This document shows, piece after piece, positions 50,497 through 51,828 of a stretch of 64,000 bases of DNA (its first letter is position 1; each line of letters opens with the position of its first letter). The position numbers and the translations under genes are program-made. Under the pieces are notes generated by a model, which had not been told where the DNA came from, did no database searches, and saw nothing but the letters and a program-made list of their open reading frames with translations. Source of the stretch: Maricaulis sp. (GTDB lineage: Bacteria > Pseudomonadota > Alphaproteobacteria > Caulobacterales > Maricaulaceae). The stretch covers positions 67,001-131,000 of the forward strand of contig NZMJ01000032.1 of the NCBI GenBank assembly GCA_002692855.1, given 5' to 3'.

Positions 50497-50572
50497 GCGC
50501 CTATAGCTCAGTTGGTAGAGCAGCTGACTCTTAATCAGCGGGTCCAAGGTTCGAATCCTTGTGGGCGCACCA
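50497..50572 (+). tRNA. tRNA-Lys(CTT)
   Basis: This is a 76-nt tRNA including an encoded CCA. The acceptor GCGCCTA pairs with TGGGCGC, D arm TAGCTCAGTTGGTAGAGC, anticodon loop ACTCTTAAT with CTT, and T arm CAAGG-TTCGAAT-CCTTG are all intact. Its 3' part (50534-50572) is repeated exactly at 51790-51828, marking an integration site. Confidence 0.97.
50534..50572 (+). repeat. attachment-site direct repeat, tRNA copy
   Basis: 39 bp identical to 51790-51828: from the 3' side of the anticodon stem (ATCAGCGGG) through the T arm and CCA. This is the segment of tRNA genes that tyrosine-recombinase elements use as attB. Confidence 0.93.
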
Positions 50573-50799
50573 ATAAAATCATACAGTTAAGTACTCGATT
50601 TTCGGAACACAAGTAGAACAGGAGACCTTCTGAAAGGTCCCCGTGGACTTCCGATGTTATCCACACGCTTTTCATTTATGCGATTTTAGCCGAGTCAATA
50701 CATCGTGGTAGCGAATTTTGATAGAATCGTTATAATTGCTCGTGCCCTGTCGGCGTGAGGCCCTTTGTTCCACTTTGGGTCGATTGAACGTCGGCGGGG

Positions 50800-51648
50800 C
50801 TATCTACGTTTTCCGCGCGTTCTATCGACACTGCTCCGATTGGGAACGAAGTTCCAATGACGGTAGCTGTGTGACCAACGGTCAGCGTAGCCGTTCGGAG
50901 TGGCGGTGCTAGCTCCGACATTGAAACGAGGGTAAATTTTCCAGATCCGATCCTTGATAACTCGATACACTCGCTCCTTCGCTCTGGCGCGCTTACTCCT
51001 TCTTTTCGCGGGCGGGACTGGCCTCGTGTGGACCTCATTGAGTCGAGATTGAACGCCTCCAAGCACGATATCTAGACCCTGCATAATATTATGTTTCTTT
51101 GAATTCACGCCAATAATTTCTTGATTGGGTACAATTACTCCGGAACTCGTGAAAACTGGAAAATCACTTAGGCTCGACATGTAGTTACGGAACATATCGA
51201 ATTTTTCTGGGCTCTGTGGTGGATCGTCGAGCAGTATCGAAGCGATCAGCATCTCGCCTGGGGAGTTATTTCCAGGCCAATATCGAAGCCCAAATGCATG
51301 CTTTATGAACTGATAGTACAATAAAAAATATTCATTATCCACTCTTTCATCGTCATATTCTGGCGGAACGTTAATATTTTGCCTGAACATAATTCTCACT
51401 TTTATTTTACCCTCTTCTATAATATTGAAAAATGATGATAAAAAATTTTCATATTTTTCTGCGTAATTTTCCGTAATCTTGCTCCACTTCATTTCTCCAT
51501 TTAAATTGTTCCTATTCTTAACGTCCTGGAGGCGTTGCTCTACCTCTTGCCGATCTGACGCGCGCACAAGCGCTCCACCATAGAATTGACTATAGTATCG
51601 GCCGCGTTCCACAGACTCGTCGCAATAGATCAAAATTCTCTCGGGCAT
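50800..51648 (-). CDS. DUF3800 domain protein
   Basis: The ATG at 51648 has GGAGG 8 bases upstream; 282 residues. LIYCDESVERGRYYSQFYGGALV is the DUF3800 start (Asp-Glu-Ser), followed by NGEMKWSKI and an acidic DDPPQ region; the family has an RNase H-like fold and often rides on mobile or defence islands. The C-terminal end is basic (RRSKRARAKER). Its codon use is AT-rich, unlike all neighbours, so it was gained horizontally. Its function is not known. Confidence 0.85.
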   Translation of the reverse strand: MPERILIYCDESVERGRYYSQFYGGALVRASDRQEVEQRLQDVKNRNNLNGEMKWSKITENYAEKYENFLSSFFNIIEEGKIKVRIMFRQNINVPPEYDDERVDNEYFLLYYQFIKHAFGLRYWPGNNSPGEMLIASILLDDPPQSPEKFDMFRNYMSSLSDFPVFTSSGVIVPNQEIIGVNSKKHNIMQGLDIVLGGVQSRLNEVHTRPVPPAKRRSKRARAKERVYRVIKDRIWKIYPRFNVGASTATPNGYADRWSHSYRHWNFVPNRSSVDRTRGKRR

Positions 51649-51789
51649 CGACAGGGCCTCCCAACGAGGATTCAATCAACCATACCGGGCATGTCTTCAC
51701 CAGCATGGTTTCCCAGAAATAGATCGGGCAAGTTCGTTCACTACAGATTTTTAAGTCAGTCGAACTCAAAGATTGACTGAAATCTCCCG

Positions 51790-51828
51790 ATCAGCGGGTC
51801 CAAGGTTCGAATCCTTGTGGGCGCACCA
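51790..51828 (+). repeat. attachment-site direct repeat, distal copy
   Basis: Exact copy of the tRNA-Lys 3' part. Just before it (TCTCCCG) the match to the tRNA stops, so this copy is not a tRNA gene. The native chromosome continues at 51829. Confidence 0.93.

Follow-up and report, generated by a model that had tools for sequence, protein, structure and literature searches.

Enzyme-less mobile elements have usually been recognized only when they are large. CIMEs, which include 15 Dehalococcoides ssrA islands devoid of integration modules, retain attL and attR at a tRNA or tmRNA gene and carry cargo without integrase or transfer genes, according to the accessible portions of the reports (PMC5704250, PMC3146451). 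The microcin H47 island of Escherichia coli also has no integrase, and its excision was shown experimentally to use trans-acting chromosomal functions; the available text describes a 13-kb island with extensive imperfect repeats and a bacteriocin cargo (PMC3191183). Integron cassettes and CALINs are mobile units of approximately 1 kb that carry one gene each and receive their enzyme from elsewhere, whereas the phage satellites PICI, PICMI, and tycheposons are small, site-specific, and dependent elements that often carry defence genes, as given in the accessible part of one source (PMC11389934). For DUF3800 proteins, an RNase H fold, an association with noncoding RNA, and a link to Cas12a2 have been reported in the text available to us (PMC10910872).

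This study analyzed a 64,000-nucleotide stretch of a Maricaulis genome (hereafter the window), in which an integrase-less island of 1.2 kb with one main gene occupies the 3' end of a tRNA-Lys(CTT) gene. As in the CIMEs described in the accessible text of those reports, attL and attR are retained and integration and transfer genes are absent; however, the present island measures 1.2 kb, contains one main gene, and has no other element in tandem with it, and the same tRNA is occupied in relatives by two unrelated islands of similar size. The island is similar to the H47 island in being integrase-less, and to integron cassettes in its size, its single gene, and its presumed dependence on an enzyme from elsewhere, but, compared with the cassettes as that source presents them, it relies on a tRNA site with end sequences on either side and forms no array. 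In contrast to the satellites of the same source, it has no satellite gene of any kind. Its cargo shares the protein family, the predicted RNase H-type fold, and an adjacent structured RNA with the DUF3800 genes that accompany DUF3800-VIII RNA (RF03075). Unlike the Cas12a2-linked DUF3800 of the available text, the insert contains no CRISPR part, its RNA is divergent, and the gene is carried on a tRNA mini-island. The literature that we searched, largely outside subscription papers, contained no description of such mini-islands.

A one-gene island at the 3' end of tRNA-Lys

ARAGORN identified a single tRNA in the window, an intact tRNA-Lys(CTT) on the plus strand (50497-50572; Rfam tRNA, 74 bits). 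The 39 bp of its 3' end (50534-50572, the attL side) recur at 51790-51828 with 39 of 39 positions identical, and this direct repeat is the longest reported in 49500-53500. The right copy (attR side, plus strand) corresponds to the original 3' end of the tRNA. The island body between the copies (50573-51789) is 1,217 bp in length with a GC content of 45%; the GC fraction falls from approximately 0.65-0.68 outside the insert (approximately 0.65 upstream) to 0.39-0.50 within it and rises again beyond.

The only substantial gene in the insert is a DUF3800 gene on the minus strand. Its open frame has a TTG start at 51675 and encodes 291 aa. Because the starts of its relatives align near Met10 of this frame and a GGGAGG ribosome-binding site (51657-51662, minus strand) lies 8 nt before the ATG at 51648, the gene is best taken as 50800-51648, encoding 282 aa. 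The open reading frame list and domain search revealed no integrase, relaxase, or conjugation family in the insert, no packaging, capsid, replication, or regulatory gene, and no second sizeable cargo gene. These results bear out features proposed by an earlier sequence-only reading, namely the exact tRNA copy as a trace of integration, the AT-rich insert, the good ribosome site, and the missing integrase. The same reading had the island carry only a DUF3800 gene; this holds in that the gene is the sole substantial one, but a strongly folding element is also present at 50743-50803. A terminator-like hairpin was called downstream of DUF3800 on the minus strand (50621-50642), a weak call given three such sites in the region against 1.6 in shuffles.

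tRNA-Lys(CTT) is a shared integration site

We searched family genomes for the 3' pattern of this tRNA. The pattern was matched in 32 of 137 genomes, including the genome of the window (G000), and two copies were found on one contig in four of the 137: G000 (spacing 1,256 bp), G005 (1,095 bp), G098 (1,338 bp), and G001 (13,226 bp). Three of these four doubled sites, in the window, in G005 (MAG RI_462), and in G098 (Maricaulis maris DSM 4734), are integrase-less islands of 1.06-1.30 kb that each contain one main ORF and whose cargoes are unrelated; the DSM 4734 island is located at L035 4907-6286. The inserts in G005 and G098 measure 1,055 and 1,298 bp and contain main ORFs of 212 and 316 aa, respectively, neither of which matched Pfam or PADLOC. 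The fourth site holds a full 13-kb element (L024, 3956-17139) with a tyrosine integrase at its right end, which also carries a family-B DNA polymerase, a Rep (ORF2/G2P-like) protein, restriction-modification genes, and a resolvase.

In an order-wide sample of 398 genomes, 43 matched the pattern, and G173 and G328 provided further doubled sites. At the G328 site, phage-like genes and an integrase lie close to the ends. Integrase-bearing users of the same tRNA comprise G001, G328, and G149; in the phage-like contig L082, the tRNA lies beside an integrase and capsid genes (from reading the translations). The tRNA-Lys(CTT) site is a hotspot, and its use by integrase-bearing elements in relatives supports the earlier proposal of site-specific integration at the tRNA 3' end. 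The proportion of mini-islands, three of four doubled sites on one contig or three of six when split sites are included, is an upper estimate because contig breaks in MAGs hide larger elements. G145 and G149 were not counted as mini-islands, their copies being on two contigs, the second of which has no tRNA. G173 was likewise rejected: 17.2 kb separates its two tRNA-Lys ends (L045, 1387-18648), and near-copies of a CAAX-protease-like gene, identified by reading, follow each of them, so this site is perhaps a duplication.

A further occupant was observed in G104 (L039), in which the same tRNA is separated from the downstream gene by approximately 3.3 kb of additional DNA encoding a 226-aa protein and a 253-aa membrane-type protein. 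No second repeat was found in this DNA, which looks like an eroded island. The 226-aa protein contains RNLVVH and the G005 ORF contains RNEIVH, both of which we take to fit the HEPN-type Rx4-6H motif; the two proteins show weak similarity (BLASTP E 0.016 when compared as a single pair).

Sporadic presence and empty sites

The sequence-only reading had suggested comparing close relatives for an empty site in which 50572 joins 51829. DUF3800 was present in none of seven congeners (completeness is only 69% and 88% in two of them), in agreement with a sporadic presence, and among 60 genomes searched the cargo was encoded by G000 and G022 only. The cargo is thus clearly absent from congeners, but no exact empty site for the window island was found in the relatives compared. 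G003, the closest congener, shows 74% identity to the window over 1 kb up to the tRNA; past the tRNA, the match resumes only at approximately 53512. An exact empty site is not seen in G003 because 51829 to approximately 53510 (approximately 1.7 kb) is also missing at this place. This stretch contains a 171-aa ORF, a small zinc-ribbon-like ORF, and MerT-like and MerR genes. The stretch possibly represents an earlier, separate insertion adjacent to the island, and a third copy of the repeat was not detected.

The other doubled sites were compared in the same manner. The flank of the G005 right repeat directly follows a single tRNA in G002 (93.5% over 92 bp), which gives the G005 island an exact empty site. 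The gene after the G098 right repeat adjoins the tRNA in six single-copy relatives, and that after the G001 right repeat, an inorganic pyrophosphatase by reading, lies 230 bp past the tRNA in G003.

Island ends and candidate recombinases

The G005 and G098 islands share approximately 80 bp at the left end and 70 bp at the right end, with scores of 46 and 43, respectively, against maxima of 37 and 41 in 1000 shuffles. The window island was tried as a member of this end group and rejected (left p 0.145 and 0.178, right p 0.90 and 0.25 against shuffles); its ends match neither those of G005 and G098 nor those of G001. With ends unlike those of G005 and G098, the window island may fall outside their group. 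No siblings with the window island's ends plus an integrase were found. The identity of the repeats also differs in extent, starting at tRNA position 38 in the window island and reaching into the anticodon loop in G005, G098, and G001. Taken with the differing ends, this suggests that at least two integrase types stand behind the three mini-islands.

The palindrome AAGTCNACGTNGACTT was found in two of 137 genomes, in both cases inside the G005 and G098 mini-islands. A control pattern, the palindrome read backwards, also occurred in two of 137, so the count by itself is at chance and only the location is telling. The end pattern matched 12 stretches of the genome_contigs set, and the fetched stretch included a tRNA only for the two known islands; the other ten were taken as chance matches. 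The same pattern matched no stretch in viral_contigs. One other GACTT palindrome was noted in L102.

The sequence-only reading had proposed an enzyme supplied from elsewhere and had suggested looking for a trans-acting tyrosine recombinase in the same genome. PF00589 matched three places in G000, as did phrog_1, and reading of the translations assigned them to a XerC-like gene beside accA and XerD-like genes beside priA on two mutually duplicate contigs. These two models, which may miss divergent tyrosine recombinases and any serine recombinase, detected no phage-type tyrosine integrase in G000, and the suggested search returned XerC- and XerD-like genes only. The idea of a supplied enzyme gains from the two additional integrase-less mini-islands at the same tRNA but not from G000, in which no helper integrase was found. 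The G001 integrase has a 35% match in G098 and none in G000 or G005. The shared end motifs were absent from the five regions scanned (G005:C20 and G098:C6, C8, C9, and C10); further PF00589 places in G098 (C3 and C4) and in G005 (C43 and C12) score like Xer genes. The two duplicate contigs of G000, C35 and C172 (L032 and L033), repeat each other in opposite orientation over the fetched stretch. The G000 assembly, which includes the window in contig C85, comprises 4.07 Mb in 173 contigs with 5.89% contamination, compared with 2.2-2.8 Mb in congeners, and is probably inflated.

Origin of the island

We lean, by a modest degree, toward reading 50573-51828 as a non-autonomous (CIME- or hitchhiker-like) integrative element that was placed by a supplied integrase and carries a nuclease and RNA cargo. 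Site-specific recombination would have inserted such an element at the 3' end of tRNA-Lys(CTT); the tRNA would thereby have been restored, and the original 3' end of the host gene would persist as the right repeat. Because the island encodes no recombinase, a tyrosine integrase of another element would have acted in trans.

An alternative that we hold to be the less probable, but a serious one, is that internal deletion removed the integrase and other genes from a tRNA-Lys island, of which an immobile remnant is left. CIMEs are described as decay products in the accessible text of one report (PMC5704250), full elements exist at the same tRNA, and the region in G104, with approximately 3.3 kb and no second repeat found, looks eroded. 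However, three islands of near-equal size retain both repeats and one intact main ORF, an outcome that random deletion would not favor, and G005 and G098 kept both ends while their cargo differs. Far more improbable is a phage satellite in the strict sense, dependent for packaging on a helper prophage with this tRNA as its own site. The small size would fit, and this tRNA carries a prophage in G328 and occurs in the phage-like contig L082; nevertheless, the island has one main protein-coding gene and none for packaging, capsid, replication, or regulation, and the earlier suggestion of a minimal satellite, taken strictly, is not supported. With a hitchhiker-like element as the preferred reading, the tRNA-Lys mini-islands hint at a class of one-gene hitchhikers. 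The occurrence at a single tRNA of three near-equal islands, each with one main ORF, suggests that tyrosine-recombinase sites can serve the movement of single genes, in a manner that partly resembles integron cassettes.

The cargo is predicted to be an RNase HII-like nuclease

The protein matched PF12686 (DUF3800) with 29.4 bits against a curated cutoff of 21. PADLOC matched its residues 10-128 to positions 1-119 of the 232-position candidate model PDC-M04A (E 1.4e-16). The M in PDC-M04 presumably means multi-gene; no second component was found, the insert having no second sizeable cargo gene, and a literature search on PDC-M04 found nothing. Relatives of the protein were found in G022 (42%), G538 (46%), and G774 (44%), and class-wide in 3 of 385 genomes, its own included. 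Phages contributed 14 records at 38%, 13 of them from Riemerella, a Citrobacter plasmid contributed one at approximately 25%, and 11 IMG/VR loci carry relatives. From reading of translations, the G774 copy is part of a prophage-like region in which an integrase adjoins a below-cutoff tmRNA match, the L084 copy adjoins a serine recombinase, and the L109 copy adjoins a type I specificity subunit. Because of the PDC-M04A match and the relatives in phages and prophage-like regions, a defence role of the island is no more than plausible.

Residues D19, E20, E61, D150, and D202 are kept in nine aligned proteins, and the adjacent Asp-Glu recalls RNase HII. A first structure model, built from 4 sequences (pLDDT 63), had no match at E 0.001 or better. 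A second model from 10 sequences (pLDDT 84, pTM 0.86) was closest to RNase HII/H2, with a best Foldseek E of 4.4e-4 and three matches at or below 0.001. VIA-align placed the second model against RNase HII/H2 with a Z score of 9.7 over 171 residues (rmsd 3.5), only modestly above the best Z of 7-8 common for models without a clear match, and PIWI domains followed from Z 7.1 downward. A sequence search of the PDB returned nothing significant. On the basis of the model, the DUF3800 product is predicted to be a nuclease with an RNase HII-like fold.

A DUF3800-VIII-like hairpin converges on the gene

RF03075 (DUF3800-VIII) was found beside the gene in all 13 distinct relatives of at least 35% identity that we examined (L005, L083-L086, L089, L091, L092, L107, L109, L110, L111, and L113). 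This set includes the frame-broken L086, counts the repeated loci once (L112 has the same protein as L089, and L105, L106, L108, and L114 repeat L083-L086), and represents the 14 phage records by one examined record (H2). Twelve of the 13 RNAs scored above the gathering score, L089 being below it (34.8 against 40.2). In 12 relatives the RNA is at the 3' end of the gene, L107 being the only one with it on the 5' side; 10 have it on the strand opposite the gene, whereas L085, L086, and L107 have both on one strand. The best-scoring copy is that of L107 (2900-2965, 67.5 bits). The distant relatives L090 (approximately 25%) and L115 (27%), outside the 13, had no RF03075 match at E up to 0.5. In a 12-sequence alignment fitted to the structure, 87% of cells were paired and 21 of 25 pairs changed on both sides, a number that none of 500 shuffles reached.

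In the window, a hairpin on the plus strand at 50743-50803 is convergent with the DUF3800 3' end. Rfam gave no match to it at E up to 10, and the RF03075 gathering score was not reached. We built a model from five relatives (R1), which recovered two relatives outside its build (39.9 and 39.6 bits) and scored the Riemerella copy at 12.9 bits. The best R1 match of the entire 64 kb was 50743-50803 (plus strand, 13.9 bits, E 0.36; E 0.0069 within the insert), a score below the 18.8 bits that R1 gave to an unrelated place in L092 (5108-5177). A broader model (R2) scored the Riemerella copy at 36 bits and the hairpin at 11.9 bits (E 0.04 within the insert); its search of the whole window listed only a match elsewhere (5484-5530, 12.5 bits) and not the hairpin. 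The hairpin forms the outer and inner stems of the family beside the DUF3800 gene, although the conserved GAA and GUAG letters of the family are changed. Its fold z score is -4.4, with none of 200 shuffles as good, whereas folding is less marked for the 230-nt stretch as a whole (z -1.9 on the plus strand and -0.6 on the minus strand). The blocks GCCCUG, GUUCCAC, and GCGGGGC, a pattern chosen after the hairpin had been seen, occur in this order once in 64 kb and in none of 100 shuffles.

Judged by its sequence and fold, 50743-50803 is quite probably a divergent relative of DUF3800-VIII RNA, and we call it DUF3800-VIII-like rather than a member. The competing explanation, a transcription terminator or chance fold that leaves the protein as the only cargo, would draw on the missing Rfam match, the weak R2 score, the unrelated L092 match of R1, and a terminator-like call that overlaps the 5' arm of the hairpin. 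We regard it as unlikely, since the position and orientation are those of 10 of the 13 relatives, the two stems are those of the family, the shuffles did not reproduce the fold, and the three blocks, even if selected post hoc, were not found in shuffled sequence. The cargo is probably two-part, a nuclease and an RNA, a partnership that is shown in relatives and that we infer for the window.

With a divergent DUF3800-VIII relative as the preferred reading of the hairpin, the nuclease and the convergent RNA would most likely form a protein-RNA module in which the RNA may be bound, processed, or used as a cofactor or antidote and the nuclease may cut RNA or RNA:DNA. Such a module could give the island a stabilizing or anti-phage advantage. 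A broader proposal, which we offer as speculative and rather doubtful, is that Maricaulaceae-type bacteria host cassette-like elements of approximately 1.1-1.3 kb, with one cargo gene, integrase-recognition ends, and no enzyme, which helpers with at least two types of integrase insert at tRNA-Lys, and that the one in the window is a self-contained nuclease-RNA ribonucleoprotein cassette for defence or addiction. The cargo offers a compact setting in which to study how DUF3800 proteins and their structured RNA motifs act together.

Two loci among the relatives deserve mention. In Riemerella phage vB_RanS_PT33 (L089, 3986-4893), the DUF3800 gene is annotated as a hypothetical protein and has the sub-threshold DUF3800-VIII RNA at its 3' end. 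In an IMG/VR prophage contig (L086, repeated as L114), the DUF3800 frame is broken, and the RNA still scores above the gathering score.
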